Below are positions 16,001-59,065 of a stretch of 64,000 bases of DNA, in pieces. Source of the DNA: Xestospongia bergquistia (Eukaryota; Porifera; Demospongiae; Haplosclerida; Petrosiidae). The stretch's first letter is position 1. Every line of letters begins with the position of its first letter. The notes below the pieces were generated by a model. The model saw only the letters and a program-made list of their open reading frames with translations. It searched no databases and was not told the origin of the DNA. The stretch is taken from NCBI GenBank assembly GCA_963965975.1, contig OZ014419.1:3995677-4059676 (forward strand), given 5' to 3'. A program made the position numbers and the translations under genes.

Positions 16001-16114
16001 ATGATTACCATATGGTTAAATGAGGGCAGAGCTACTAAAGAAGCTTTGATTAAGGCAGTTAGGGATATGAAGTTGCATCGTATTGCTGACAAAATTGCTG
16101 AGCTACCTTCATAA
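910..16114 (+). CDS. ankyrin-repeat / Roc-like GTPase / death-domain protein, 5'-partial
   Basis: This is the 3' part of a multi-exon gene for a cytoplasmic signalling protein. Exons read: five ankyrin exons (910-1008, 2749-2847, 5599-5697, 8406-8504, 10550-10648), a partial repeat (13020-13083), the GTPase/COR-like exon (13369-15143), then 15234-15687, 15747-15806 and 15855-16114 with stop TAA at 16112-16114. All junctions are GT-AG and phase-consistent. The GTPase has a P-loop, a DSGGQ switch motif and a TYYDK motif. The C-terminus is a death domain. ROCO/DAPK-like proteins with ankyrin, GTPase and death modules act as scaffolds or switches in cell-death and innate signalling; a role for this copy is inference. 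The start codon is outside the window. No frame break was found, so it is probably functional. Confidence 0.85.
2749..2847 (+). CDS. ankyrin repeat exon 2
   Basis: A 99-bp, phase 0-0 exon between CTTTTAG and GTGAGT. It encodes one repeat (NMITPLHDAICNGRTEVVAL, then LIKSRANLDAVDK). HDAI replaces the usual HxAA. It resembles the exons at 8406 and 10550 more than the one at 910, which matches the duplication history seen in the introns. Confidence 0.85.
5599..5697 (+). CDS. ankyrin repeat exon 3
   Basis: A 99-bp, phase 0-0 exon after TTATTTAG and before GTAAGG. It encodes one canonical repeat (SKNTPLHWAAYKGYSEIA, ending GALLDAIDK). Both the exon and the flanking intron are close relatives of the 910 exon region. 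Confidence 0.85.
6930..7560 (+). other. insertion of about 630 bp in one ankyrin intron copy, with a 71-codon ORF
   Basis: Both intron copies contain CAGGCTATGGGTAAC (2124 and 6915), but the duplicate then carries extra sequence before homology resumes near CTACTCAGTGCCATTG. The extra sequence includes the end of an open frame, 6894-7109, with coding-like content (KYASLAGGICDNLQKVA). I do not recognise it. It could be a mobile-element fragment; no terminal repeats were identified. Confidence 0.35.
8406..8504 (+). CDS. ankyrin repeat exon 4
   Basis: A 99-bp, phase 0-0 exon after TATTTTAG and before GTTAGT. It encodes one repeat (NKRTPLHVAARNGKTEVA, ending RANLHAVDK). It is a sister of the exons at 2749 and 10550. 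Confidence 0.85.
9130..9440 (-). pseudogene. decayed coding-like remnant inside an ankyrin intron
   Basis: On the minus strand a stretch reads IHDEEIETILVENLF, then IMKCDLLEVNKISSCYC, before stops. The same remnant occurs, diverged differently, at 11391-11900, because the two introns are duplicates. The protein is not recognised and no intact frame remains. Confidence 0.3.
10550..10648 (+). CDS. ankyrin repeat exon 5
   Basis: A 99-bp, phase 0-0 exon after ATATTTTAG and before GTTAGT. It encodes one repeat (DKRTPLHLAASKGETEVA, ending GANLDADDK), the most canonical of the five. Homologous intron sequence on both sides ties it to the exons at 2749 and 8406. Confidence 0.85.
11391..11900 (-). 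pseudogene. decayed unknown ORF remnant in the last ankyrin intron
   Basis: The minus strand contains coding-like blocks such as TIEIYTKYYFSKRMISKEIA (about 11750) and DEGLEIILLENLAIMKCELL (about 11600), in different frames with stops between. It parallels the remnant at 9130-9440. It may be a transposon-derived gene that inserted before the intron duplicated. No conserved catalytic motif was identified. Confidence 0.3.
12545..12639. repeat. near-perfect 38-40-bp inverted repeat (hairpin)
   Basis: The arm starting CATATTTCTTAATTTAATAT at 12545 is answered by its reverse complement ending at about 12639, across a short AT loop. The two arms differ at only a few positions. It could be a small MITE remnant or a hairpin in the pre-mRNA; it lies in the intron before the 13020 exon. 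Confidence 0.7.
13020..13083 (+). CDS. partial ankyrin repeat exon joining repeats to the GTPase
   Basis: A 64-bp exon after TTATTACAG, with donor GTATGT. It encodes DCKTALDLAPNHHVLRVLTD, the first helix pair of a degenerate last repeat. It ends in phase 1; the next exon starts with AC, which completes an Asn codon and keeps frame. Confidence 0.8.
13369..15143 (+). CDS. Roc-like GTPase plus COR-like exon
   Basis: A long exon, open for about 590 codons. Near its start is the P-loop GPPCVGKTS (13455-13481). An acidic, Ser/Thr-rich insert of about 150 residues follows. DSGGQ (14049-14063) is the switch II motif with the GGQ seen in Roc-type GTPases, and GTYYDK (14316-14333) sits at the position of the base-specificity motif. 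The second half (VRYYMFEMRLTEEASQ, then NPQYLIDMLSALIQFSFV) matches the helical, winged-helix style of COR regions, which couple GTP state to dimerisation. No signal peptide or membrane segment is seen. The exon ends at CAG before GTATAA. Confidence 0.85.
15234..15687 (+). CDS. exon linking COR-like region to death domain
   Basis: A 454-bp exon after TTGTTTAG, entering in phase 0 and ending in phase 1 before GTTAGT. It encodes about 151 residues from GVFPAVVVALVTREEKPQFY through VDRFYWIEVYYTG to NERQRCWLI. It continues the region between the COR-like part and the death domain; I do not recognise a separate named domain. No frame break is present. Confidence 0.75.
15747..16114 (+). CDS. death-domain exons around an optional 48-bp intron
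   Basis: Sequence 15747-15806 continues the frame (STPLPAIVPFHTNIPDGPL). A likely intron, 15807-15854 (GTATGC...TTATTAG, 48 bp), follows, then 15855-16114. The last exon encodes a typical death domain: VVDWYTLGIYLGF, then RRKMITIWLNEGRATKEALI and RIADKIAELPS, with the conserved Trp-Leu-Gly and the TxEAL helix. Death domains form homotypic complexes in apoptosis and innate signalling. The 48-bp segment is in frame without a stop, so retention would add 16 residues just before the domain. Confidence 0.8.
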
Positions 16115-23529: not shown

Positions 23530-24545
23530 CTCCTTAACTTTTATTATGTCTACTGTGTCCTAATGTAATTGTCCCCTCTACTGTGTGCTGTCCTGCTACA
23601 ATTTTCTAAATTAACTGATCTGTCTACTGTTTTCAAATGTAACTGTCTCATCTACTGTATCTAAATATAATTCTCCTGTCTACTGTGTCTAACATAACTG
23701 TCCAGTCTACACAGTGTTTTAGTATAATTGTCCTGTCTACTGTTATACTAATATAATTGTCCCATCTACTGGGATATAATATAGCTGTCTAATTTACTGT
23801 GTTCTAATGTAACTGTCCCGTCTACTGTGTCCTAATGTAATCATCAAGTATAATGCATCATAGTATAATTGTCCCATCTACTTTGTCCTAATGTAATTGT
23901 CTAATCTGCTGTATCCTAATGTAACTTTCCCTTCCACTGTGTCCTAACGTAATTGACAATCTACCTTGTCCTAATGTAATTGTCCAATCTACTACTTTGT
24001 CTTAGTTTAATTATGCCATTTACTATGTCTTAATGTAGTTATCCTAACTACTGTTTCCTAATGAAACCATCTGTTTACTGTGTCATAATGTAACTTTTGT
24101 ATATACTGCGTCCTAATGTAATTGTCCTATCTACTGTGTCCCCTAATACAACCATCATGTCTATTGTGTCGTAATAAAACTTTCCTGTCTAATTTGTCCT
24201 AATGTAATTGTCTCATCTACTGGGTTCTAATGTAATTGTCTTCTAATAATTGTCTGTGTTCTATTATAACATTTCATTCAACTATGTCCTAATGTAATTG
24301 CTGATCTAACGTCTTCTAAGGCAACTGTCCCATAGACTGTGTCCTAATATAAGCGCCAATCTACTGTGTTGTAATGTAACTGTCCCATCTACTATGTGCT
24401 AACATAATTTTCCCATCTGCTGTATCCGGATGAAAGTTTACATTCTACTGTGTCCTAGCATAATTTTCTCAACTACTACTGTCCTGTCTAGTGTGTCCTA
24501 ACATAATTATCAGGTCTACTACTGTGTCATAATATAACTGACTGT
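23530..24545. repeat. degenerate minisatellite, period about 28 bp
   Basis: The phrase CTACTGTGTCCTAATGTAA, followed by TTGTCCC/ACTGTCC, recurs roughly every 28 bp with many substitutions and small indels, about 35 times in 1 kb. No ORF crosses it. Both strands appear non-coding. Confidence 0.8.
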
Positions 24546-33426: not shown

Positions 33427-35193
33427 TTAATATTTTATCACACCATATGCAGCACATGTCTTAATCTCTAATTCAGTAGTAGGTAGTGTATTTAGTGATC
33501 ATATGGACATTCTCATATTGAAGTATAACTCGATGAGGAACAGTATCTGTTAGTGGATTAATAGGAGATGGTTTAGTACCTGCAATGTATAATATCGTTT
33601 GCAAACTATTTCCACTGTTAGTATTACCTTGTCTCAATGACTTAGTCTGAACAGTCATATGTATCTGTAGTCATGCAAACAGAACTTGTGGATACAGGAC
33701 AAGTCATCTGACAAAAAGATGTGCAAGTTGGTCCCAATCCAGTAATAGTGATATCAGTAGATGATATTGCCCAGTCATCTGATAATGTGTACTCCTCTCA
33801 ATATCGTATACATACATATTATATATACCAGTAGGTAGATCAGATGTACATCCAATTACTGTACTACTACATACTGGAGAACACATCAATGATATGTTAG
33901 TACTGTAGGTAGAGGAGATTAATGAAATAAGACAGCCTTTAACAAAATCTCCTCTTATAAAGTGACAGCTGTAACATGTTCTACCAATAGTACTTAGGTC
34001 ACTATATAGAGTAGCTTCAGTAATATCATATGTACCTAATGAATGAGAAAATATTTATAAGTCATTTATAATGTACTTACTTAGTATAGTTGATTCTGTT
34101 ACATCCATAACAGCTCCACTTGGTAATGATAAACTCATTCTTGTCTTCCATATTTTATTCTCAGTTATATTTATGATATAGATGGTAACAACAATAACTC
34201 CTTTATCAGTTATAATTATTGGATTATTTAGAAATATAGTAGAATTATCTTCATTGTATATAACAACATCTAGTTGAGCTGATTCCACTGTATGTGGACA
34301 TTGTTGAAGTTCCTAATATCACAAACATGAGGTATCTAGAGATATTGTAATGTAACTTACCAAATCATATATTGCTATATTAAGTAGCCAACTATTGACT
34401 GATCTGTAGTTGTTAAAATACTTATATTAGCTAAAATCAGAGTAATAAATGTTATGTTAGTAACCATAGTGATAATACCTCCTGGTACATGTAATGATAT
34501 AGTACTTATCTTTCCTACTCCAGCTGAGTTATTACCAGCTATACTAATTGTATATATGCATATGCCAAATTGGTTTAGGAGATAAAACTATGTTGTAGAA
34601 GATGTTGTGTTCTGTGTAACTAGTTCTCCATAAGTAACATTGATAATATAACCAGGTACGGATACCAGAGAGAAAGGAAGAGACCAGGAACAGTTTATAT
34701 ACTGACTTTATACAAGACATATCAAGTTGTTGACAGCAGCTAGTTCACCTAATGAGAGGAGATATAATGACATATATCAGAGAGTGTGTTATCTTGTATT
34801 CTCAGACTAGATTCATTAAAGTTGTAATAACTCATGTTACCATTCACAAATCCTGCAGCATTACATCTCACTACTGTATTGTTATATTGAGGATATCCAG
34901 GTATAGTAAGATTAGACTGTTGTGATCCATCTCCGTTTGTAAGTTGAATAATGTCATTATTAGCAGAACCTGTTCCATTAACATACTAAGTAATACTAAA
35001 ACCAGTATAATCAACTGAACATTGGTAATGTGCTAGTTGATAGACTTCAATGTTAGGAGATGGAGTAAATATGAACTGAATAGCTACATAATAAAACTAA
35101 ATAAAATAGTACATTAGTTATTAATATAATTATACCTGTACATATTAATATAATAGATACTAACAATATCAGTAGTAGCCATGTTGTCTTCAC
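33427..35193 (-). pseudogene. Ig/FN3 receptor-like gene, broken copy A
   Basis: Minus-strand exon-like blocks: 35136-35193, a signal peptide (KTTWLLLILLVSIILICT) whose expected ATG reads GTG; 34793-35083, an Ig-like domain (FIFTPSPNIEVYQLAHYQCS) with an in-frame TAG; 34479-34748, an FN3 domain (CSWSLPFSLVSVPGYIINVT, then TISIAGNNSAG) with two stops; 34361-34430; 34081-34312 (VIVVTIYIINITENKIW); 33628-34035, a Cys-rich module (TCYSCHFIRGDFVKGCLISL) with a later frameshift; and 33427-33579, the tail. The layout is that of a secreted or cell-surface adhesion/recognition protein. No membrane helix was found. The donor after the Ig exon reads AT instead of GT. Confidence 0.65.
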
Positions 35194-35299
35194 TAGATCT
35201 ATACTGATTTTATCATTACATCATTATTACATCACCACATATTATAGTAACATGCTGATAACAGTTAGTAATATAGTATATATTATACTAGACATACGT

Positions 35300-35610
35300 A
35301 TACGCAGTGTAGAGCCTCGCGCAGTGAATTGCATACATTTTTGTATGCAGATATTATTTTTATCTTTCTGTTAAAATAGCTGGGCCAGGGAAGATAGCAC
35401 ACATGATTCCATGCACAGCTGGAGAATAATAGCAACAGTGACATTTCAGGAGCACGTGAGCATACGTTTGCGCCAGTTTGCGGTTTGGGCTGAAATAATT
35501 GCATTCTCAAGCGTGACACATACATACATACATACATACATACAAACTATCTGCGAGATGCGACGCACGATTATTTGCCTCGCGCTAAGGCGCTCGGTAA
35601 TTAAGAGTTT
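35300..35610. other. GC-richer island with (TACA)n, between two diverging receptor-like copies
   Basis: This 300-bp stretch is clearly richer in CG dinucleotides than its surroundings (AGCCTCGCGCAGTG, CGTTTGCGCCAGTTTGCGG, GCCTCGCGCTAAGGCGCTCG). GCCTCGCGC occurs near both edges in the same orientation. A TACA microsatellite lies at 35519-35545. Long overlapping open frames on both strands are compositional and have no recognisable motif. It may be a promoter-type island or an unclassified short repeat. Confidence 0.4.
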
Positions 35611-35758
35611 GCATAATAGTTTGTGTAGTATATATGTTATTTATTAAATTATATGATATGTTTTTTTAATTGTTATTAATATGTATAACATAATTGATAA
35701 ATAATGTATAATTTGAATTAAATATATTAAAAATATTCGACAAATTAACATTCACAAT

Positions 35759-35870
35759 GACAGTATTCTAGATGACAATATTTTGAACAGTTGTTAATGT
35801 AAAAGTAGAATTTTGACAGTATTCTAGATGACAATATGTTAAACAGTTGTTAATTTAAAAGTAGAATTTT
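35759..35870. repeat. tandem duplication of a 56-bp unit
   Basis: The unit beginning GACAGTATTCTAGATGACAA at 35759-35814 is repeated at 35815-35870 with a few changes. Confidence 0.9.
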
Positions 35871-43083: not shown

Positions 43084-45265
43084 TGATTGAGATAGTCTTA
43101 CCTCAGTCGTGTTGTTGCTCTCTATTTCAACTTGCAGTACGAAGTCAAGAAATTTTACAACTAATTCAACTATTGCTATTGTTTTTTGTCATTGTGGAGA
43201 GTCTGAATTGAATTTTTTGCTACGACCACAAACTAGAACTGACTTTTTATCACGATTTGTTACGGTAAGTCAATCTGTTTCTTTCTAAGTTACAAATTAA
43301 AATGATCTCTACGTCAGACAGTGTGTTTTTTATGATGGTCTTGATTTATTCACCACTGTTGTCTGTGAATTCTTTTAGTTTGTAACTGTTAATGCTAACT
43401 CCTTAAATTGAATGTAGAGTGAAGTAATTTGTAATGAAGCAGTTTTGGGTGGTATGTCTGTATGTTTGTGATGATGTGATGAACGAACATATGCTGGTTT
43501 GAAAAATTGCTGTCTGAAGACACTTTGAACTTGTGGTTAATTAAAATCATAATGATGTAGGTGGGCCGGATTTCATAATGGGATAAATGAAGTGGGAACT
43601 TGTTAAACAAATTTAAGCTAATTGAAATTTTTTGTGTGTATAACCAATTTATCTGTTGCTATTTATATATAAAATGTTTTTCTGATGTAGCTGTCATCTT
43701 AAAATCTGCTTTTACCTGACAGAACCTTTCGATCATGCATGCCATAGGCCTTTCCTATCAAGCACATCTGAGCACCCTCCACAATACAAGCTTTACGAAA
43801 AGCAAAATTTACTTAAAGCTTATGAAGCAGTATTGGGTGGTATGTCTGTCCAAAGAGCAGCTGAAGAATACAATGTACCAAAAAGTACTTTACATGATCG
43901 CCTCACTGGAAAAGTGATGTTTGGATCTGTCAGTTGACCAACAAAATACCTTAGTGATATTGAAGAGGAAGAACTTGTGCAGTTTCTTCTTGATTGTTTT
44001 TCTAAAACAAAAAGATACTCAATCCATTACTACCAGTAACAAAACTCAAATTACTGTGCTGTCTTGTTGTAGTGCAAGTGGCCATGTCTTGCCACCTATG
44101 AAAGTGTTTGACTGAAAGACATTAAAGGCTGAAATGACTGTAGGACAGGTGCCAGGGTCAATGTATGACTTGTCAGAGAGTGGCTGGGTTAATGGTGAAC
44201 TGTTTGATCTATGGTTCAGGCATCATTTTCTGTCTCATACTTCACCACTTTGTCCATTGCCTTTATTGTTAGATGGACATTCATCTCACTGTACTCCATC
44301 TGTTTTTAATAAAGCTGCAGAGGAAGGACTGATTATGTTTTGTTTACCAGCTCATTCTACACACTTGACTCAGCCCCTTGATAAGGGATGTTTTTTGATT
44401 TTAAAGAGATATTGGTGAGAGGAGTGCCATAATTACTTAAGCTCAAATCCTGGAAAGGTTATCACCAGGTTTACATTTTGTCAGGTTTTTCGACATGCAT
44501 GGAGTCAAAGCATGACAATGGAAATGTTATAAGTGGTTTTCGTACCACTGGAGTTTGCCTTATTAACAGAGCAGCAGTTTTCATTAAAACGCCAGTAAAA
44601 TCTAGATTGACAGATTTAGAAGCCAAGAAAAACCATCACCTTTCCCTTTATAGCCCATCTCTATACGTCTCCAGTACATAATACTACCTTCACTACTGAA
44701 GAGATATTATGCTTTCAATGACGTTATGAGGAAAGCTATGATTTAGAGACTGATGTACGATATAACAAGTGGGTTGACATCCTCAAGGTGCACCATAGCC
44801 TTTATCACCACATGTTGGGGAGCTTTTTCTGTTTCGTGTTCACCTGATACTTCTAGACCTGAAGTAGAAAAATGTCATGGATCTCAAATTTCTCAACTTA
44901 CCTCAGTCACCACTCTTTCCAAGTTTTAAAAATGAAATGCCAAATACAAAACTTCCAAGAAAAGAAGCAAAGACATCTGCTTGTTTTTCACAAGCAGCGA
45001 AAATCGTAGGATACTTGAAGAAAAAGGAAGCTTTGGAAAAAAAATAAAAGAAAAAATGTGCCCTAGAAGAAAGAAATAGGAAGAAAAAAGAAGCTGAACT
45101 TAAGAGACTTGCAAGAGAAAGATCAAAATGTAATTGCATTAATATAATGAATACTTAATCAATTAATGCTCTTTGTATTTACTACATGCAGAGAATCGTA
45201 TGGCAATTGAAGAAAAAGAGAAAAGGAAATAAGAAAAAATGAGAAAGAAGAAAGAAAAAAAAGAA
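43084..45265 (+). pseudogene. pogo/jerky-type DDE transposase gene, degenerate
   Basis: A non-coding first exon (to about 43264, donor GGTAAGTC) is followed by an exon after CTGACAG at 43720. From about 43780 the frame encodes a psq-type helix-turn-helix (KQNLLKAYEAVLGGMSVQRA, then AEEYNVPKSTLHDRLTGKV) that would bind DNA ends. After a stop at 43935-43937, DIEEEELVQFLLDCFSKTKR is the start of the second DNA-binding domain. A deletion then removes the rest of it and the first catalytic Asp. The DDE part resumes as TTSNKTQITVLSCCSASGHV and holds the second and third acidic residues in LLLDGHSSH (44272) and QPLDKGCF (44380), 36 residues apart. A basic coiled-coil tail follows (44930-45262), with further stops. 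Confidence 0.75.
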
Positions 45266-45269
45266 GTAA

Positions 45270-45270
45270 G

Positions 45271-45304
<34 letters not shown>

Positions 45305-45305
45305 C
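45270..45305. repeat. (TA)n microsatellite in a transposase intron
   Basis: A short TATATA run just downstream of the donor GTAAGTATAT at the end of the coiled-coil exon. Confidence 0.85.
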
Positions 45306-45411
45306 TGCAACTTACACATTCTTCCTTTGATTAGATCAAGCTAGGATTGCTCAATTAAAAAAATGAGAATGACACATCGTTAAATTTTGATTCCTTTATA
45401 TTATTATAGAG

Positions 45412-45700
45412 AGTACTTACTCTAAAAAGTCCTGTACTGGTTCAGCCCCTATTGGAAGTTCTCAATCTACATCGAACAATCCCACTGAAAGTAGGTATTT
45501 ACATAATTCATCTTAAGTCTAGCACCATTTCAACCAGTATCAACGAAGGTATTCTTATATTATATTGCAATTAGGTTGCTTATTGTTTACAGTACCTGAA
45601 GAACTAGAGCACAGTTTAAATGAAGGTATAGTGTTAACTTATGAATTAGTATATATACCACAACAGGTACTACAGATATCTCCAACTCTCCAATAGATGA
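45412..45700 (+). CDS. three short Ser/Thr-rich exon-like segments leading into the array
   Basis: After ATTATAG, about 45411-45488 reads STYSKKSCTGSAPIGSSQST and ends GAA A before GTAGGT. After TTTACAG, about 45592-45624 reads PEELEHSLNE before GTATAG. After CACAACAG, about 45667-45698 reads TTDISNSPI and ends CCAATAG, the same end as every array unit. Phases agree (each ends in phase 1). They may be the last transposase exons or the first exons of a separate gene that the array extends. A second open frame exists in the first segment, so the protein reading is uncertain. Confidence 0.4.
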
Positions 45701-48700
45701 GTTTGTCTGGCCTTTAATTATTCATTATTAAAAAATCTACCCTCTAGAACTCAGCCTCTGAGATGTTCTCAAACTCAAAAGGCAACCACTGTCAAGACTC
45801 CAATAGGTCAGTTTGTCTGTTATCTTCTAAGTTATTCATTGTTAAATAATCTAGCTTCTAGTACTAGGTCACTGAGATGTTCTCAGTCTCGAAAGGCAAC
45901 CACAGTCAAGTCTTGAATAGGTCAATTTATCTGTTATCTTCTATATTCATCATAAAATAATCTAGCCTCTAGTACTCGGTCTCTGACATTTTCTCAGTCT
46001 CGAAAGGCAAACACTGTCAAGACTCCAGTAGGTCAGTTTGTCTTTTATCTTCTATGTTACTCATTGGTAAATAATCTAGCCTCTAGTACTTAGTCTATGT
46101 GATGTTGTCAGTCTCAAACAGCAACCACTATCAACCTTCCAGTAGATTAGTTTGTCTGTTACCTTCTATGTTATTCATTGTTAAATAATCTAGCCTCTAG
46201 TACTCACTCTGTGACATGTTCACAGTCTCAAAAGGCAAGAACTTTCAAGACTCCAATAGGTCAGTTTGTCTGTTATCCTCTGTAATTATTATTCATTATT
46301 AAATAATATAGTCTCTAGTACTCGGTCTCTGAAATGTTCTAAGTCTAAAATGGCAACCACTTTCAAGACTGTTATATGTCAGTTTGTTTATTAGCTTCTA
46401 TATTATTAATGTTATAATAATTTAGCCTCTAGCACTCAATCTCAGAGATGCTCACGGTCTCAAAAGCAGCCACTGTCAAGTTTCCAATAGATCATTTTGT
46501 CTGTTGCATTCTATATTATTCATTGTTAAATAATTTAGTTTCTAAGTCTAAAATGGCAACCACTTTCAAGACTGTTATATGTCAGTTTGTCTGTTTGCTT
46601 TTATATTATTAATGTTTTAATAATCTAGCCTCTACCACTCAATTTCAGACATGTCCTTGATCTCAAAAGGCAACCACTGTCAAGTCTCCAATAAGTCAGT
46701 TTATCTGTTATATTCTATATTATTCATTGTTAAATAATCTAGCCTATAGTACACAGTGTCTGAAATTTTCTCAGTGTCAAAAGGCAACCATTATCAACCC
46801 TCCACTAGGTTACTTTTTATGTTTGCTACTATAATATTAATGTTATAATAATTTAGCCGGTAGCACTCAATCTCATAGACACTCTCTGTCTCAAAAGGCA
46901 ACGACTGTCAACCTTCCAATAGATCAGTTTGTCTGTTACCTTCTATGTCATTCATTGTTAAATAATCTAGCTCTAGTACTCGGTCTCTGAGATGTTCTCA
47001 ATGTTCTGTAAAGCCTCTAATAGGTCAGTTTGCTTCTATAATTATTATTAATGTTATAATAATCTAGCCTCTGGCACTCAATCTCAGACACGTTCTAGGT
47101 CTCAAAAAGCAACAACTGCCAAGTCTCCAATAAGTCAGTTTGTCTGTTAACTTCTATATTATTCATTGTGAAATAATCTAGCCTCTAGTTCTTGGTCTCT
47201 GAGATGTTCTAAGTCTAAAAAGGCAACCACTGTCAACACTCCAATATGTCAGTTTGTTTATTTGCTTCTATATTATTAATGTTATAATAATTTAGCCTCT
47301 ACGACTCAATCTCTGAGACGCTATCAGTCTCAAAAGCAACCACTGTCAAGTCCCCGATAGGTCAGTTTGTCTGTTATCTTCTATATTATTCATTGTTAAA
47401 TAATCTAGTTTCTAGTAATCCATCTCTGACATGTTATTAGTATCAAAAGGCAACCACTGTTAAGCCTCCAATATGTCAGTTTGTCTGTTGTCTTCTATAT
47501 TATTAATGTTATAATAATCTAGCCTCTAGCACTCAATCTCAGACACGTTCTCGATCTCAAAAGGCAACCACTGTCAAGTCTCCAATTGGTCAATTTGTCT
47601 GTTATCTTCTATATTATTCATTGTGAAATAATCTATCCTCTAGTACTCACTCTCTGAAAAATTCTCAGTGTCAAAAGACAACCACTCTCAAGACTGTAAT
47701 AGATCAGTTTGTCTGTTATATCTTAAGAGTTATTCATTGATAAATAATCTGTCTTCTAGTACTCCGTCTCTGAGATGTTCTCAGTGTCAATAGTTACTTC
47801 TATATTATTAGTGTTATAATAATCTTGCCTCTAGCACTCAATCTCAGACACATTCTCGATCTAAAAAAGCAACCACTGTCAAGTGTCCAATAGGTCAGTT
47901 TCTTTCTTATCTTCTTTATTATTCATTGTTAAATAAACTGGTCTTTAGTGTTTTGTGTCTATGAGGTTGGCAGTCTTAAAAGGCAACCACTGTCAATACT
48001 CCAATAGGTCACTTTGTCCGTTTCCTACTGTAATTATTATTAATGTTATTAGCCTCTAGCACTCTATTTCAGACACATTGTCAGTCTCAAAAGGCAACCA
48101 CTCTCAAGACTGCAATAGGTTATTTTGTCATTTTGCTTCCATATCATTAATGTTATAATAATGTAGGCTCTAGTACTCAATCTCACACATGTTCTCGGTC
48201 TGAAAAGGCAACCACTGTCAAGTCTCGAATAGGTCATTTTGTCCGTTATGTTCTATATTATTCATTGTTAGCCTCTAGTACTCGGTGTCTGAGATGCTCT
48301 CAGTATCATAAGGCAGCCACTGTCAAGACTCCAATAGGTTAGTTTGTCTGCTTCCTTCTATATTATTTATTCTTAAATAATCTAGCTTCTAGTACTCAGT
48401 CTCTGAGATGTTCTTAGTCTCGAAAGGCACCACTCTCAAGACTCCAATAGGTCAGTTTGTCTGTTTTCTTGTATATTATTAATGTTATAATAATCTAACC
48501 TGTAGCACTCAATAGCGGACATGTTCTCAGTCTCAAAAAGCAGCCACTGTCAAGTCTTCAAAAGGTTAGTTTGTCCATGATATTCTATATTATGCATCAT
48601 TCTATAATTTAGCCTCTAGTTCTCGGTCACTGAGATGTTCTCAGTCTAGAAATGCAACCGCTGTCAAACCTCCAATAGATCACTTTGTCTGTTTGTTTCT

Positions 48701-51700
48701 ATATTATTCATTGTTAAATAATCTAGCTTCTAGTACTCAGTCCCTGAGATGTTCTCAGTCTCAAAAGGGAACCACTGTTAAGACTCCAATAGGTCAGTTT
48801 GTCTATTTGCTTCTATATTATTAATGTTACAATAATCTAACCTCTATCTCTCAATCTCAGGCACATTCTCTGTCTCAAAAGGCAACCACTGTCAAGTCTC
48901 TTTAATAGGTCAGTTTGTCTGTTATAGTCTATATTATTCATTATTAAATAATCTAGCCTCTAGTACTCAGTCTCTTACATGTTCTTAGTCTCAAAAGGTA
49001 CCCACTATCAAGACTACAATATATCAGTTTGTGTATTTGCTTCTGTATTATTAATGTGATAATAATATAGCCTCTAGTACTCAATATCAGAGACGCTCTC
49101 TGTCTCAAAACGCAATGACTGTCAACCTTCCAAAAGATCAGTTTGTGTGTTACCTTCTATGTTATTCATTGTTAAATAATAATCTAGCTCTAGTACTCGG
49201 TTTCTGAGATGTTCTCAGTGTCAATATACAACCACTGTCAAGCATCCGATAGGTCTGTTTGTCAGTTTACTTCTATATTATTAATGTTATAATAATCTAG
49301 CCTCTAGCACACAGTCTTTGACACGTTCTAGGTCTCAAAAAGCAACCACTGTCAAGTCTCCAATAAGTCAGTTTGTCTGTTATCTTCTATATTATTCATT
49401 GTTTAATAATCTAGCCTCTAGCACACAGTCTTTGACACGTTCTCAGTCTCAAAAGGCAACAACTTTCAAGACTCCAATAGATCAGTTTGTCTATTATCCT
49501 CTATATTATTCATTATTAAATAATCTGGCCTCTTGCGCTTGATCTCTGAGATGTTCTAAGTCTAAAAAGGCAACAACTTTCAAGACTTATATGTCAGTTT
49601 GTTTATTTGCTTCTATATTATTAATGTTATAATAATTTAGCCTCTACCACTCCATCTCAAAGATGCTCACGATCTCAAAAGTAACCACTGTCAAGTCTCC
49701 AATAGGTCAGTTTGGTTGTTATCTTCTATATTATTCATTGTGAAATAATCTAGCCTCTAGTACTTGGTCTCTGAGATGTTCTAAGTCTAAAAAGGCAACC
49801 ACTGTCAACACTCAAATATGTCAGTTTGTTTATTTGCTTCTATTTTATTAATGTTATAATAATTTAGCCTCTAGCGCTCAATCTCAGAGACACTCTCAGT
49901 CTCAAAAGCAACCACTATCAAGACTCGAATAGGTCAGTTTGTCTGTTATCTTCTATGTAATTCATTGTTAAATAATCTAGCTTCTAGTAATCATCAGTCT
50001 CTGACATGTTCTCAATCTCAAAAGGCAACTACTGTCAAGACTCCAATAGGTCAGTTTGTCTGTTTGCTTCTATATTTTTAATGTTACAATATTCTAGCCT
50101 CTATCTCTCAATCTCAGGCACATACTCTGTCTCAAAAGGCAACCACTGTCAAGTCTCCAATAGGTCAGTTTGTCTGTTATCTTCTGTATTATTCATTCTT
50201 AAATAATCTAGGCTCTAGTATTCAGTCTTTTACATGTTCTTAGTCTCAAAATGCAACCACTGTCAAGACTACAATAGGTCATTTTGTTTGTTATCTTATA
50301 TATTATTCATTATTAAATAATCTAGCCTCTAGTACTCAGTCTCTTACATGTTCTTAGTCTCAAAAGGTACCCACCGTCAAGACTACAATATGTCAGTTTG
50401 TGCTTCTGTATTATTAATGTTATAATAATCTAGCATCTAGTACTCTATATCAGAGATGCTCTCTGTCTCAAAGCGCAACGACTGTCAACCTTCCAATAGA
50501 TCAGTTTGTGTTTTACCTTCTATGTTATTCATTGTTAAATAATAATATAGCTCTAGTACTCGGTCTCTGAGATGTTCTCAGTGTCAATATACAACCACTG
50601 TCAAGCATCCGATAGGTTAGTTTTTCAGTTTACTTCTATATTATTAATGTTATAACAATCTAGCCTCTAGCACACAGTCTTTGACACGTTCTAGGTCTCA
50701 TAAAGCAACCACTTTCAAGACTACAATAAGTCAGTTTGGTTGTTATCTTCTATATTATTCATTGTGAAATAATCTAGCCTCTAGTACTTGGTCTCTGAGA
50801 TGTTCTAAGTCTAAAAAGGCAACTACTGTCAACACTCCAATATGTCAGTTTGTTTATTTGCTTCTATATTATTAATGTTATAATAATTTAGCCTCTAGCG
50901 CTCAATCTCAGAGACACTCTCAGTCTCAAAAGCAACCACCGTTGAGTATCCAATAAGTCAATATGTCTGTTATGTTCCACATTATTCATTGTTAAATAAT
51001 CTAGCTTCTAGTACTCCGTCTCTGACATGTTCTCAGTCTCAAAAGGCAACCACTGTCACAAAGAGATTAGTTTGTCTGTTATTTTCTATGTTAATTATTG
51101 TTAAATAATCTATCCTCTTGTGCTCAGTCTCTGAGATAATCTAAGTCTAAAAAGGCTACCACTTTCAAGATTCCTATATGTGAGTTTCCTTATTTGCTTT
51201 TATATTATTAGTGTTATAATAATCTAACCTCTAGCGCTCAATCTCAGGCACATTCTCTGTCTCAAAAGGCAACCACTGTCAAGTCTCCAATAGGTCAGTT
51301 TGTCTGTTATCTTCTGTATTATTCATTCTTAAATAATCTAGCCTCTAGTAATCATCAGTCTCTGACATGTTCTCAATCTCAAAAGGCAACCACTGTCAAG
51401 ACTCCAATAGGTCAGTTTGTCTAATTGCTTCTATATTTTTAATTGTTAATTAATCTGGCTTGTAGTACTCCGTCTCTGATATGTTTTCTGTCTCAAAAGG
51501 CAACCACTGTCAAGTCTCCAATCGGTCATTTTGTCTGTTATTTTCTATTTTATTCGTTGTGAAATAATCTATCCTCTAGTACTCGGTCTCTGAAATATTC
51601 TCAGTGTAAAATACAACCACTGGGAAGTCTCCAATAGGTCAGTTTGCTTCTATTATTATTATTAATGTTATAATAATCTAGCATCTAGCAATCAATCTCA

Positions 51701-54700
51701 GACACGTTCTAGGTCTCAAAAATCAACCACTATCAAGTCTCCAATAGGTTGTCTTCTGCATTATTCATTCTTAAATAATCTAGCCTCTAGTACTCAGTCT
51801 CTTACATGTTCTTAGTCTCTAAAGGCAACCACTGTCAAGATTACAATAGGTCATTTTGTCCGTTATTGTCTATATTATTCATTATTAAATGATCTAGCCT
51901 CTAGTACTCGATCTCTGAGAAGTTCTCAGTCTCAAAAGGCAACATATTGGGTATTTGCTTCTATATTATTAATGTTATAATAATCTAGCTTCTAGCACTC
52001 AATCTCAGGCACATTCTCCGTCTGAAAAGCCAACCAACGTCAAGTCTTATATAGGTCATTTTGTCTATTATCTTCTATGTTATTCATTGTTAAATAATCT
52101 AGCCTCAGTCTCTAACATGTTTTCAGTCTCAAAAGGCAACCGCTGTGAAGACTCCAATAGATCAGTTTGTCCTATATTATTTATTGTTAAATAATTTAGC
52201 TTCTAGTACTCAGTCCCTGAGATGTTCTCAGTCTCAAAAGGAAACCACTGTCAAGACTCCAATAGGTTTGCTTCTATATTATTAATGTTACAATATTCAA
52301 GCCTCTAGCTCTCAATCTCAGGCACATTCTCTGTCTCAAAGGGCAACCACTGTCAAGTCTCCAATAGGTTAGTTTGTCTGTTATATTCTATATTATTTAT
52401 TGTTAAATAATCAAGAGTCTAGTTCTTACTCTCTCAGATGTTGTCAGTCTAAAAAACAACCACTGTCAAGCCTCCACTAGGTCAGGTTTTTGCTTCTATA
52501 TCATTAATGTTATAATAATCTCTATCCTCTAGCAATTAATCTCAATCACGTTCTTGTCTGAAAAGGCAACCACTGTCAAGTCTTGAATAGATCATTTTGT
52601 CTGTTATCTTCTATGTTACTCATTGTTAGATAAGGTAGCTTCTAGTACTCGGTCTCTGAAATGTTCTCAGTCTCAAAAGGTATCCACTGTCAAGCCTCCA
52701 ATAGGTCAGTTAGTCTGTTATATTCTATATTATTCATTGTTAAATAATCAAATAATCTATCCTATAGTGCTCGGTCACTGAGATGTTCTCAGTCTCAAAA
52801 GGCAACCACTGTCAAGTCTCCCATAGGTCAGTTTGTCAGTTTACTTCTATACTCTTACTGTTATAATAGTCTAGCCTCTAGCACTCAATCTCAGAGACAC
52901 TTTCTGTCTCAAAAGGCAACCACTGTCAAGTCTCCATAGGTCAGTTTGTCTGTTATATTCTATATTATTCATGGTTATAAAATCTAGCCTATAGTACTCG
53001 GTGTCTGAAATTTTCTCGGTGTCAAAAGGCAGCCACTGTCAAGCCTCCAATAGGTCGGTTTGTCTGTTTTCTTCTATGATTATTATTAAAGGTATAATAA
53101 TGTAGCCTCTAGCACTCAATCTCAGATACGTTCTAAGTCTCAAAAAGCAACCATTGTCATGTCTCCAATAGGTCAGTTTGTCTTTTATCTTCTATATTAT
53201 TCATTGTTAAATAAACTGGTCTAGCCTCTTCTACTCGGTCTCTGAGATGTTCTCAGTCTCAAAGGCAACCACTGTGGAGACATTAATAGATCAGTTTGTC
53301 TGTTATCTTCTCAGTTATTCATTGTTAAATAATCTAGCTTCTAGTACTAGGTCTGTCAGATGTTGTCAGTCTCAAAAGGCAACCACAGTCAAGTCTCTAG
53401 TAGGTCAATTAGTCTGTTATCTTCTATATTATTCATTGTTATAATAATCTAGCCTCTTGTACTCAATCTCAGACGTATTCTCAGTCTCAAAAGGCAAACA
53501 TTGTCAACCCTCCACTAGGTCAGTTTATCTATTTGCTTCTATATTGTTAATGTTATAATAATCTAGCATCTAACACTTAATCTGAGTCATGTTCGCAGTC
53601 TCAAAAGGCAACCATTGTCAAGTCTCCAATAGGATAGTTTGTCTGTTTGGTTCTATATTTGTTCAATGTTGAATAATATAGCCTCTAGTACTCTGTCTCT
53701 GATATGTTCTCAGTCTCAAAAGACAACCACTGTCGAGTCTCAAATAGGTTGTTTTATCTGTTATCTTCTATATTATTCATGGTTATATAATCTAGCCTCT
53801 AGTGCTCAATCTCAGAGACGCTCTCTGTTTCAAAGGGCAACAACTGTCAACCTTCCAATAGATCAATTTGTGTGTTACCTTCTATGTTATTCATTGCTAA
53901 ATAATCTAGCTCTAGTACTCAGTCTCTGAGATGTTCTCAGTGTCAATATGCAAACACTGTCAAGCCTCCAATAGGTCAGTTTGTCAGTTTACTTCTATAT
54001 TATTAATGTTATAATAATCTAGCCTCTAGTAGTCAGTCTCAGACATGTTCTAGATCTCAAAAAGCAACCACTGTCAAGTTTCCAATAGGTCATTTTGTCT
54101 GTTATCTTCTATGTTATTCATTATTACAGAATCTAGCATCTTGTACTCAGTCTCTGACATGTTCTCAGTCTCAAAAGGCAACCACTGTCAAGACTCCAAT
54201 AGGTCAGTTTGTCTGTTTGCTTCTATATCATTAATGTTATAGTAATCTAGCCTCTAGTACTCAGTCTTTAACGTGTTCTCAGTCTCAAAAGGTAACCACT
54301 GTCAAGCCTCCAATAGGTTAGTTCGTCTCTTCTATTCTATATTATTCATTGTTAAATAATCTAGCCTCTAGTGCTCAGTCTCTGAGATGTTCTCATTATC
54401 AAAAGGCAACCACTGTCAAGCCTCCAATAGGTCAGTTTGTCTGTTTGCTTCTATATTATTTATATTATAATAATCTATAATACTCGGTCTCTGTGATGTT
54501 CTTACTCTCAAAAGGCAGCCACTGTCAAGACTCCAACAGGTCAGTTTGTCTGTTTGCTTCTATATTATTAATGTTATAATGATCTAGCTGTTAGCACTCA
54601 ATCACGGACACGTTCTCGGTCTCAAAAGGCAACCACTTTCAAGTCTTCAATAGATCAGTTTGTCTGTTATCTTCTTTGTTATTCATTGTTAAACAATCTA

Positions 54701-57700
54701 ACTTCTAGTACTAGGTCTCTAAGATGTTCTCACTCTAGAAAGGCAACGACTGTCAAGCCTCCAATAAGTCAGTTTGTCTGTTTGCTTCTATGTCATTAAT
54801 GATATAATAATCTAGCCTCTAGCACTTTAATAACTCTGACACGTTCTCAGTCTCAATAGTAAACCACATTGAAGTCTCCTATAGGTCATTTTGTCTATTA
54901 TCTTCTGTGTTATTCATTGTTAAATAATCTAGCCTATAGTTCTCAGTCTCTAACATGTTCTCAGTCTCAAAAGGCAACCACTGTCAAGCCTCCACTAGGT
55001 GAGTTTGTCTGTTTTGTCAGTTTGCTTCTATATTATTAATTATTACATAATGTAGCTTCTAATACTCAGTCTCTGAGATGTTCTGAGTCTCAAAAGGCAG
55101 CCACTGTCAAGATTCCATTATCTCAGTTTGTCTGTTTACTTCTATATTATTAACGTTATAATATTCTAGCCTCAAAAAGCAACCACTTTCAAGTCACCAA
55201 TGGGATAGTTTGTCTGTTATCTTCTATATTATTTAATGTTAAATAATCTGGCCTCTAGTACTCTGTCTCTGAGAGGTTGTCAGTCTCAAAAGGCAAAGAC
55301 TGTCGAGACTCCATTAGGTCAGTTTGTCTCTTTTATGTTACTCGTTGATAAATAATGTAGCATACTAGTACTAGCTCTCTGAGATGTTCTCATTCTCAAA
55401 AGGCAACTACTGTCAAGCCTCCGATAGGTTAGTTCGTCTCTTCTATTCTATATTATTCATTGTTAAAAAATCTAGCCTCTAGTGCTCAGTCTCTGAGATG
55501 TTCTCATTCTCAAAAGGCAACCACTGTCAAGCCTCCAATAGGTCAGTTTGTTTGTTTGCTTCTATGTTATTAATGATTTAATAATCTAGCCTCTAGCACT
55601 TTAACTCTGACATGTTCTCGGTCAACCACATTGAAGTCTCCAATAGGTCATTTTGTCTATTATCTTCTGTGTTATTCATTGTTAAATAATCTAGCCTATA
55701 TTACTCAATCTCTAACATGTTCTCAGTCTCAAAAGACAACCACTGTCAAGCCTCCACTAGGTGAGTTTGTCTGTTTTGTCTGTTATCTTCTATATTATTA
55801 ATTGTTACATAATGTAGCTTCTAATACTCAGTCTCTGAGATGTTCTCAGTCTCAAAAGGCAGCCACTGTCAAAATTCCAATATGTCAGTTTGTATGTTTA
55901 GTTCTATATTATTAATGTTATAATTTTCTAGCCTCTAGTTCTCAGTCTCTTACATGTTCTCAGTCTCAAAAAAGCAACCACTGTAAAGACTACTATAGGT
56001 CATTTTGTCTGTTATCTTCTATATTATTCATTGTTAAATAATGTAGCCTGGTCTCTGAGATATTCTTAGTCTCAAAAGGCAACCACTGTCAAGACACCAA
56101 TATATCAGTTTGTGTATTTGCTTCTATATTATTAATGTTATAATATTCTAGCCTCTAGTACTCAATTTCAGAGACGCTCTCTGTCTCAAAGGGCAACACT
56201 GTCAACCTTCCAATAGATCAGTTTGTGTGTTACCTTCTATGTTATTCATTGCTAAATAATCTAGCTCTAGTACTCAGTCTCTGAGATGTTCTCAGTGTCA
56301 ATATGCAAACACTGCCAAGCCTCCAATAGGTCAGTTTGTCAGTTTACTTCTATATTATTAATGTTATAATAATCTAGCCTCTAGCAGTCAGTCTCAGACA
56401 TGTTCTAGATCTCAAAAGCAACCACTGTCAAGTCACCAATAGGTCATCTTGTCTGTTATCTTCTATAGTATTCATTGTTAAATAATCTAACCTCTAGTAT
56501 TCAGCCTCTTACATGTTCTTAGTCTCAAAATGCAACCACTGTCAATACTGCAATAGGTCATTTTGTTCTATATTATTCATTATTAAATAATCTAGCATCT
56601 AGTACTCAGTCCTTGACATGTTCTTAGTCTCAAAAGGAAACAACTTTCAAGACTCCAATAGATCAGTTTGTCTGTTATCCTCTATATTATTCATTATTAA
56701 ATAATCTAGCCTCTTGTGCTCGATCTCCGAGATGTTCTAAGTCTAAAAAGGCAACCACTTTCAAGACTGTTATATGTCAGTTTGTTTATTTGCTTCTATA
56801 TTATTTATGTTATAATAATGTAGCACTCAATCTCAGACACATTCTTAGTCTCATTATCAGACACGTTGAAAAGGCAACCACTGTCAAGACTCCAATAGGT
56901 CAGTTTGTCTGTTATCTTCTATATTATTCTTTGTTAAATAATCTAGATTATAATACTCGGTGTCTGTGACATTCTTACTCTCAAAAGGCAGCCACTGTCA
57001 AGACTCCAATAGGTCAGTTTGTCTGTTTGCTTCTATATTATTAATGTTATAATGATCCTGCTGTTAGCACTCAATCACGGACACGTTCTCTTTCTCAAAA
57101 GGCAACCACTGTCAAGTCTTCAATAGATCAGTTTGTCTGTTATCTTCTTTGTTATTCATTGTTAAATAATCTAACTTCTGGTACTCGGTCGCTGTGATGA
57201 TCTCAGTCTAGAAAGGCAACCACTGTCAAGCCTCCAATAAGTCAGTTTGTATGTTTGCTTCCTTATTATTAATGTTATAATAATCTTGCCTCTGGCGCTC
57301 AATATCATACCAGTTCTCGGTCTCATAAAGCAACCACATTGAAGTCTCCAATAGGTTAGTTTACCTGTTATCTTCTATATTATTTATTTTTAAATAATCT
57401 GGCCTCTAGTACTCCGTCTCTGAGAGGTTGTCAGTCTGAAAAAGCAAAGAATGTCAAGCCTTCAATATGTCAGTTTGTCTGTTATTTTCTATATTATTCA
57501 TTGTTAAATAATCTCCCCTCTAGCACTTGGTCTCTAAGTTGTTCTTAGTCTAGAAAGGCAACCACTGTCAAGCCTCCAATAAGTCAGTTTGTCTGTTTGT
57601 TATTAATGATATAATAATCTAGCCTCTAGCACTCTAACTCTGACTCGTTCTCGATCTCAAAAGGCAACCACTGTAAAGTCTCCAATGGGTTATTTTGTCT

Positions 57701-59065
57701 ATTATCTTCTATGTTATTCATTGTTAAATAATCTAACCTATAGTTCTCAGTCTCTTACATGTTCTCAGTCTCAAAAGGCAACCACTGTCAAGCCTCCACT
57801 AGGTGAGTTTGTTTGTTTTGTCTGTTTGCTTCTATATTATTAATTGTTACATAATGTAGCTTCTAATACTCAGTCTCTGAGATGTTCTCAGTCTCAAAAG
57901 GCAGCCACTGTCAAGATTCCAATATGTCAGTTTGTCTGTTTACTTCTATATTATTAACGTTATAATATTCTAGCCTCTAGTTCTCAATCTTAGACATGTT
58001 CTCAGTCTCAAAAGGCAACCACTGTCAAGTCTCTAGTAGGTTAGTTTGTCTCTTATGTTCTATATTATTCATTGTTAAATAATCTAGCCTATAGTATTCA
58101 ATCTCAGAAAAGTTCTTGTCTCAAAAAGCAACCACTGTCAGGGCTCCGATAGGTCAGTCTGTCTGTCATCTTCTATATTATTCATTGTTAAATAATCTGG
58201 TCTTTAGTACTCTGTCTCTGAGAGGTTGGCAGTCTTAAAAGGCAGCCCCTGTCAATACTCCAATAGGTCACTTTGTCTGTTTCCTACTCTAATTATTATT
58301 AATTTTATAATGTTCTAACCTATAGCACTCAATTTCAGACACATTCTCGGTCTCAAAAGGCAACCACTCTCAAGACTGCAATAGGTTATTTCGTCTTTTT
58401 GCTTCTATATCATTAATGTTATAATAATGTAGGCTCTAGTACTCAATCTCACACACGTTCTCGTTCTGACAAGTTAACCACTGTCTAGTCTTGAATAGGT
58501 CATTTTGTCTGTTATCTTCTATATTATTCATTGTTAGCCTCTAGTACTCAGTCTCTGAGATGTTCTCAGTCTCAGAAGGCAACCACTGTCAAGTCTCCGA
58601 TAGGTCAGTTTGGTTGTTATCTTCTTTATTATTCATTGTTAAGTAATCTAGCCTCTAGTAATTACGGACACATTCTTTGTCACAATAGGCGACCACTGTC
58701 ATGTCTCCAATAGGTCAGTTTGGCTGTTATCTTCTATATTATTCATTGTTAAATAATCTAGCCTCTAGTACTCATTCTCTAAGATATTGTCAGTCTAGTA
58801 AGGCAACCACTGTCAAGCCTCCAATAGGTCAGTTTGTCTGTTTGCTTCTATATTAATAATATAATAATCTAGCATCTAGCACTCTAAGTCAGACACATTC
58901 TCAGTCTCAAAAGGCAACCACTGTCAAGTTACCTGTAGGTCAGTTTGTCTGTTATCTTCTATGTTATTTATTGTCAAGTAATCCAGCTTAATGTACTTAG
59001 TCTATGAGATTTTCTAAGTGTGAAAAGCCAACCACTGTCAAGCCTACAATAGGTCAGTTTATTCA
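45700..59065 (+). repeat. array of about 118 copies of a 114-bp unit with exon-intron architecture
   Basis: The consensus unit has a 66-bp half (CCTCTAGTACTCGGTCTCTG ... CAAAAGGCAACCACTGTCAA ... CCAATAG) and a 48-bp half (GTCAGTTTGTCTGTTATCTT ... TAAATAATCTAG). The 66-bp half encodes SSTRSLRCSQSQKATTVK plus TPI in phase 1-1, so removing the 48-bp half always keeps frame. The 48-bp half comes in two types: one lacks stops (TATTATTCATTGTTAAATAA), the other (TATTATTAATGTTATAATAA) has an in-frame TAA. The 66-bp half also has two types (SSTRSLRCSQSQ and SSTQSQTRSRSQ); types often alternate, giving a dimer of about 228 bp. Some units have 1-bp indels, stops, or a lost GT (ATCAG). The 66 + 48 length is strikingly constant. 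Confidence 0.85.

Follow-up and report, generated by a model that had tools for sequence, protein, structure and literature searches.

A decayed micro-exon array in the sponge Xestospongia bergquistia as the probable overgrown tail of a pogo-like transposon

The genome of the sponge Xestospongia bergquistia (assembly GCA_963965975.1) contains pogo-like transposons with an architecture of DDE transposase, tandem micro-exon tail, and PHD finger, and intact members of this kind exist in it. Here, a 64-kb stretch of contig OZ014419.1 (positions 3,995,677 to 4,059,676; hereafter, the window) was analyzed. With a probability of roughly 0.8, a tandem array of a 114-bp unit in this stretch is what remains, in overgrown form, of the micro-exon tail that such a transposon carries, belonging to a transposase-array-PHD architecture that is kept in frame. 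Healthier relatives appear to use many tiny exons to specify a long protein tail of repeats, which ends in a chromatin-reading domain. An earlier description of the window (hereafter, the original prediction) proposed a possible giant array of micro-exons; what it overlooked is that the array probably derives from a pogo-like transposon, as its tail, and that at least 10 array types occur in the genome.

The array and its decay in the window

A 114-bp period spans positions 45688-59060 of the window, as detected with Tandem Repeats Finder (TRF). Alignment to the cyclic unit divides the array into 117 exon-like and 118 intron-like segments (120 units in a separate count that includes partial ones), with modal lengths of 66 bp for the former (82 of 120) and 48 bp for the latter (87 of 120). 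These counts agree with the approximately 118 copies of a 66 + 48 bp unit originally described, and the 66-bp segment reads in phase 1-1 as had been stated. The intron-like segments start with GT in 94 of 118 cases and end with AG in 93 of 118. Two 48-bp types occur, TTATTAATGTTATAATAAT and TTATTCATTGTTAAATAAT, and the in-frame TAA that had been ascribed to one of two types lies in the first, on read-through, and is absent from the second (judged by eye and from breaks in the open reading frames, ORFs). A chance origin of the array is excluded because no other tandem array in the 64-kb window exceeds a TRF score of 354, compared with up to 6696 here.

The window copy is dead and unprotected as coding sequence, and constitutes a satellite-like fossil of the transposon system. 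Frame is kept in 89 of the 117 exon-like segments, and 66 are both in frame and open. A stop interrupts 21 of the 82 distinct 66-bp exons, and the ratio of nonsynonymous to synonymous differences (pN/pS) among them is 1.02. The 1-bp indels and frame breaks, stops, and lost GT dinucleotides that the original prediction had listed are all present. A comparison of frame-breaking length changes between the two halves of the unit, set beforehand, turned out contrary to a protected gene, with 0.0037 changes per bp in interior exons and 0.0023 per bp in interior introns. Further, a search with a PHD-exon query taken from a related locus (L024, see below) did not find a PHD exon downstream of the array. 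That transcription and splicing of the array continue and yield a giant protein of repeats, a state to which the approximately 80% of introns retaining GT or AG and the 66 open, in-frame exons would lend some color, is therefore hardly credible, given that frame breaks are at least as frequent in exons as in introns, that the transposase is broken, and that the PHD exon was not found. A functional 118-exon gene in the window is rejected on the frame-break rates, the stops, and the pN/pS value. What survives of the original reading is the exon-intron pair with symmetric 1-1 exons, and what does not is the coding state of this copy; likewise, length variation by whole units with the frame kept is found in related intact elements, and the window copy lacks such frame protection.

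A diverged duplicate of the window region (L036; 85% identity over 9 kb) carries 48 units versus the 118 of the window. A third large array, of 49 units, is found at L034; the other measured loci of families A to C (L028 lying outside this count) have 5-20. The window, L034, and L036 thus look like cases of runaway growth after transposase death.

The transposase upstream and the layout of the intact gene

The array is directly preceded on the same strand by pieces of a broken transposase and by three probable former exons (Table 1). Pfam identifies HTH_psq and DDE_1 domains, as in pogo-like transposons, in the window pieces and at loci L017 and L032, with a catalytic role predicted from the DDE_1 match. 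The DDE piece of the window has 150 scored matches in the genome, including itself. With 501 bp of the array as the query, 145 matches are obtained, several to each array, and 10 of the 21 contigs are represented; in many genomic places, a transposase is closely followed by an array in the same orientation. At L017, which represents another subfamily, DNA similarity to the window (positions 3608-5919 versus window 45187-47445; 79% by blastn) begins at window position 45187 and extends into the array. The exon directly ahead of the first repeat has lost the GT of its donor (ATGAGT), and its L017 counterpart has GT; the 33-bp exon of the window is matched in position by one of the same length in the L032 gene, and the 3' ends of the two are similar.

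Table 1. Transposon-derived features in the window (window coordinates)
Feature	Position	Strand	Basis or remark
HTH_psq DNA-binding part of broken pogo-like transposase	43686..43937	+	Pfam HTH_psq, E 2.6e-11
DDE_1 catalytic part of the same transposase	44116..44418	+	Pfam DDE_1, E 1e-13
Lys/Glu-rich transposase tail, interrupted by stops	44980..45262	+	By eye
Probable former exon, 81 bp, followed by GTAGGT	45410..45490	+	By eye; counterpart in L017
Probable former exon, 33 bp, between CAG and GTATAG	45593..45625	+	By eye
Probable former exon, 30 bp, ahead of the first repeat	45667..45696	+	By eye
Tandem array, 117-118 units (66-bp exon-like + 48-bp intron-like), decayed and over-expanded	45697..59060	+	

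In intact relatives, the gene begins with a helix-turn-helix and DDE exon that ends in a Lys/Glu-rich stretch, continues through a few small exons and a row of micro-exons, and terminates with the PHD finger as the last exon. Micro-exons have modal lengths of 51-90 bp and number approximately 5-20 per array in families A to C, and array introns have modal lengths of 42-55 bp. We infer from the sequence that these introns are spliced. Because the introns are in phase 1, the PHD finger can be retained when micro-exons are added, deleted, or skipped.

Intact and younger relatives

One young family, B, is intact. Its member L032 reads as a gene of 20 exons, with 19 of 19 introns GT-AG and in phase 1 and a predicted 996 amino acids without an internal stop, and the 5.4-kb element is bounded by terminal inverted repeats (TIRs) of 406 nt that are 99% identical. 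TA is present at both TIR ends, as seen in this single copy. The array of this family has exons of 54 or 60 bp and introns of 49 bp. Across 13 copies, none of the 136 interior micro-exons has a frame shift or a stop, and copies differ by whole units, with 9-12 each; GT-AG borders are found in 214 of 214 introns examined, and in 12 of 13 copies, the reading frame continues uninterrupted as far as the PHD stop. The exception, L040, has a transposase piece that is 1 base shorter and a finger exon that is 9 shorter. It should be noted that one repeat-like micro-exon also occurs upstream of the transposase exon (L032:1700-1753; likeness by eye).

Family A shares the 66-bp unit of the window. One of its fuller copies, L017, has a transposase frame of 666 amino acids and, behind it, 16 micro-exons that all keep the frame and lack stops, array introns of 48-50 bp (GT-AG in 16 of 16), and a PHD-finger exon. 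A PHD exon lies 37-45 bp past the array, allowing for match start, in 16 of 19 family-A loci, all of which had been picked for their array or transposase before the PHD exon came to light; it was not found in the remaining 3, namely the window, L036, and L028. The PHD exon has 37 matches at 36 genomic places at no less than 70% identity. The L024 finger matches ING-type PHD fingers in the PDB at E 1e-16 (ING1, 9.7e-17), and its match to the Pfam PHD family (E 3.3e-4) is below the curated cut-off. An insert of approximately 780 bp with inverted ends (CCATGTCCGAGTTGAGA) occupies L017:6567-7350 in the 3' part of this copy and is absent from L024; by eye, a stretch resembling it begins near L052:3430.

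These relatives bear directly on whether the window array is a satellite or minisatellite with chance splice-like motifs and no coding past. The window units themselves, with their stops, their pN/pS close to one, and no protection of frame, are what such a sequence would present. The same unit sits between a transposase and a PHD exon at other loci, however, the 16 micro-exons and 16 array introns of L017 are without a defect in frame or splice borders, and units of other families, which have no DNA match to it at E < 0.1, repeat the layout, all of which renders this explanation highly improbable. A purely non-coding satellite origin is rejected because of frame and splice-site retention in the younger relatives. 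The suggested descent of the unit from an exon and its adjoining intron is borne out by relatives that keep frame and splice sites in the same layout.

At several loci, pairs of transposase pieces face each other approximately 3-4 kb apart at C14:2141191/2143896, C3:5255824/5258727, C4:5488759/5491776, C9:4325635/4328286, and C1:3810996/3815282. Copies of transposase or array lie approximately 40 kb apart on C2 (15.9996, 16.0396, and 16.0793 Mb), and series on C5, C6, C7, C10, C13, and C15 are spaced by approximately 40 kb or by roughly 100-200 kb. Such spacing suggests large tandem arrays of segments.

Frame selection in younger arrays

Frame keeping was evaluated in the younger arrays, with the decayed L028, L034, L036, and window arrays excluded and family B counted apart; each array was trimmed by two segments at either end, and family A was counted from its first 66-bp exon. 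Exon length is a multiple of three in 262 of 273 cases. Among distinct segments whose length departs from the mode, the difference is a multiple of three for 20 of 30 exons versus 7 of 38 introns (Fisher p 7e-5, or p 0.017 when a recurrent 84-bp exon is counted once), p-values that are indicative because the units share descent.

Other families, units, and fingers

The layout is not confined to families A and B. A third family (C; L033, L049, and L050) has exons of 57/81 bp and introns of 43/45 bp, with an inverted repeat of 384 nt (98%) at L033, and a fourth and a fifth unit type come from L051 and L052. When 12 further loci were taken from the list of DDE matches without knowledge of arrays, strong tandem arrays were present at 11, where the top TRF scores ranged from 628 to 2616, and L056, a decayed copy, had a weak array only. 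The 11 arrays represent six unit types, one of which was already known from L051, for a total of ten types (A-J), all placed alike behind the transposase. Segment lengths were measured for nine of these, H (L059) lying outside the segmentation. Comparison of units among the ten types yielded no match at E < 0.1.

This absence of any unit sequence common to the families bears on whether the arrays act as DNA, offering repeated binding sites for transposase or host factors, with their coding appearance secondary. Internal tandem repeats have been described in Foldback and other DNA transposons, as far as the accessible parts of that literature go, which speaks for the idea. Yet frame keeping, uniform phase 1, and GT-AG retention would not be expected of binding sites, and we consider this account very unlikely.

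Readable PHD-like fingers occur in six families (A, B, C, D, I, and J). A strict Cys-rich motif scan recovered the fingers of L033, L050, and L063 only, the rest being read from ORF lists and sequence. All six match Pfam PF00628 (E 1.6e-6 to 8.4e-4); the curated cut-off of 24 bits is reached by B, D, and J and missed by A (21.1), C (19.8), and I (23.1). Three finger types were compared with solved structures, an ING-like, an Alfin/MLL5-like, and a BPTF/KDM5-like type, and their best PDB matches are all PHD fingers (for the second, a PHD finger family protein at 5.5e-6 and Alfin-like at 1.6e-5; for the third, BPTF at 7.6e-5). By eye, all six readable fingers have Trp at the second residue N-terminal to the His (or Asp) position, a residue that we take to line the aromatic cage of the PHD finger. 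At L063, a second, ING-like PHD stretch (L063:1810-1940) lies downstream of the family-I finger and has a match at C14:3331078.

A number of observations weigh against the proposed transposon origin and the frame-kept architecture. A search of the window for the L032 TIR end gave no match, and no inverted repeat of at least 40 nt was found in L017 within the fetched DNA. Over aligned bases, the 12 other family-B copies share 98.3-99.9% identity with L032, so that the intactness of this family partly reflects shared ancestry, and a pattern allowing near matches served to locate its array introns. Patterns spanning exon junctions of families A and B gave 0 matches to intronless copies, a search that diverged copies may escape. 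The L017 PHD exon is out of frame near its start. Several family-A copies carry breaks: in the trimmed set, 8 of 150 exons are off frame, and in a separate count, 4 of 66 distinct 66-bp exons contain stops; younger family-A micro-exons have a pN/pS of 1.30, indicating no purifying selection on amino acids, and the lower value for the PHD exon (0.46) has a wide bootstrap interval (0.20-1.24). At L034, where micro-exon pN/pS is 1.66, a 67-bp frame-breaking exon has been amplified across the array despite an open PHD exon. By eye, finger E is out of frame, finger F has a stop in the copy read, and no finger was seen for G and H in the fetched DNA, and 3 of 11 exons of family J are off frame.

Proposed mechanism and its main competitor

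In living elements, the basic tail, rich in Ser, Thr, and Arg, may serve as a flexible linker for which length counts more than sequence, and the PHD finger would, on its predicted binding, read methylation of lysine 4 of histone H3 (H3K4me3) and thereby steer integration. Death of the transposase would end selection for frame, after which unequal crossing-over could let the array grow into a satellite.

The tails appear to have moved between transposases. The window transposase and those of its type at L011-L016 share 40-57% identity with that of L017 and 43-55% with that of L032. The L017 and L032 transposases are approximately 67% identical, yet L032 has a different unit and finger, and L017 and the window share the 66-bp unit and the DNA similarity already described from window position 45187 onward. 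The simplest reading would be that tails were swapped between transposase lineages near the Lys/Glu-rich stretch; this exchange is something that we infer, because the transposase tree rests on 100 amino acids. More broadly, lineages may repeatedly have evolved their own phase-1 micro-exon arrays and PHD fingers, exchanged as cassettes, with the array providing a linker between catalysis and targeting that is adjustable in length and by splicing and is free in sequence, although its frame and splice sites would be maintained, a tentative proposal that we rate a little short of an even chance.

Alternatively, the arrays could be a neutral by-product, in that unequal crossing-over does little harm where phase-1 exons are symmetric and introns minimal, the tail and its length being irrelevant to transposition and selection merely purging units that break the frame. 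Micro-exons without amino-acid constraint and unit sequences that differ among families fit this account. A strong array at 11 of the 12 further transposase loci is beyond what tolerance easily explains, and the order of transposase, array, and finger recurs in the six families with a readable finger; moreover, background arrays of comparable strength are rare, as the best score elsewhere in the window illustrates. We regard the neutral account as less likely than not.

Comparison with known systems

Tandemly repeated exons of 81 bp were reportedly described by Davis et al. in 1988. RAG1/RAG2 carry out DDE recombination, and we know of no exon array in that system. The comparisons that follow draw on the accessible portions of the papers cited. 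The RAG2 PHD finger binds H3K4me3 (PMC8355894), and the sponge elements would resemble RAG1/RAG2 in coupling DDE recombination to a PHD reader of this mark; in RAG1/RAG2, the finger is on the partner protein RAG2 and the system is not pogo-like. Published pogo elements measure 1.20-5.20 kb with transposases of 300-977 amino acids, and some in insects have long TIRs of 392-856 bp (PMC7386202). The sponge elements share with that superfamily an HTH_psq/Tc5-type DNA-binding part, DDE_1, and TIRs, and differ in the 5.4-kb element, the predicted 996 amino acids in 20 exons, the micro-exon array, and the PHD finger; the words intron, exon, and tandem are absent from the main text of that paper, as far as it is accessible. 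Ginger1-9_HM likewise joins a DDE transposase to a C-terminal PHD finger, and some Ginger1 elements have introns (PMC2836005), but Ginger1 belongs to another transposase superfamily, has 1-4 introns where present, and a micro-exon array goes unmentioned in the accessible text.

Schistosoma micro-exon genes also have many short exons, mostly multiples of three, but with introns of 0.1-5 kb and secreted products (PMC10526429), as opposed to introns of 42-55 bp and a transposase here. Because their introns are of this modal length, the sponge arrays are not classed as micro-exon genes of the schistosome type. Variable tandem repeats in human duplicated genes alter exon content and intron formation, with units of approximately 30 bp and approximately 4 copies on average that are not exon-intron pairs in a transposon (PMC2812944). 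No report of micro-exon arrays in transposases or of PHD fingers in pogo elements was found in the accessible parts of the literature covered, which lay mostly outside subscription papers.

Other features of the window

Window positions 34254-35788 have a 92-96% identical copy at L005, beside another array on contig C9; therefore, a larger segment has been duplicated. A degenerate minisatellite of approximately 30 copies of 28 bp, with a unit unlike that of the 114-bp array, occupies positions 23623-24525. A large GTPase-like gene at 13320-16114 has a weak Roc match (E 0.009, below cut-off), and its C-terminal ORF resembles a death domain by eye.

Implications

If the proposed origin is correct, a selfish element builds and rebuilds a large gene of repeated exons, with at least 10 micro-exon units in one layout in one genome. 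These elements would provide a natural series for studying the origin of tandem exons and the splicing of a dozen near-identical 49-nt introns, and they raise the question of whether transposons target active chromatin via borrowed PHD fingers. The window copy, in turn, would illustrate how a coding unit of exon and intron can turn into a satellite of 13 kb.

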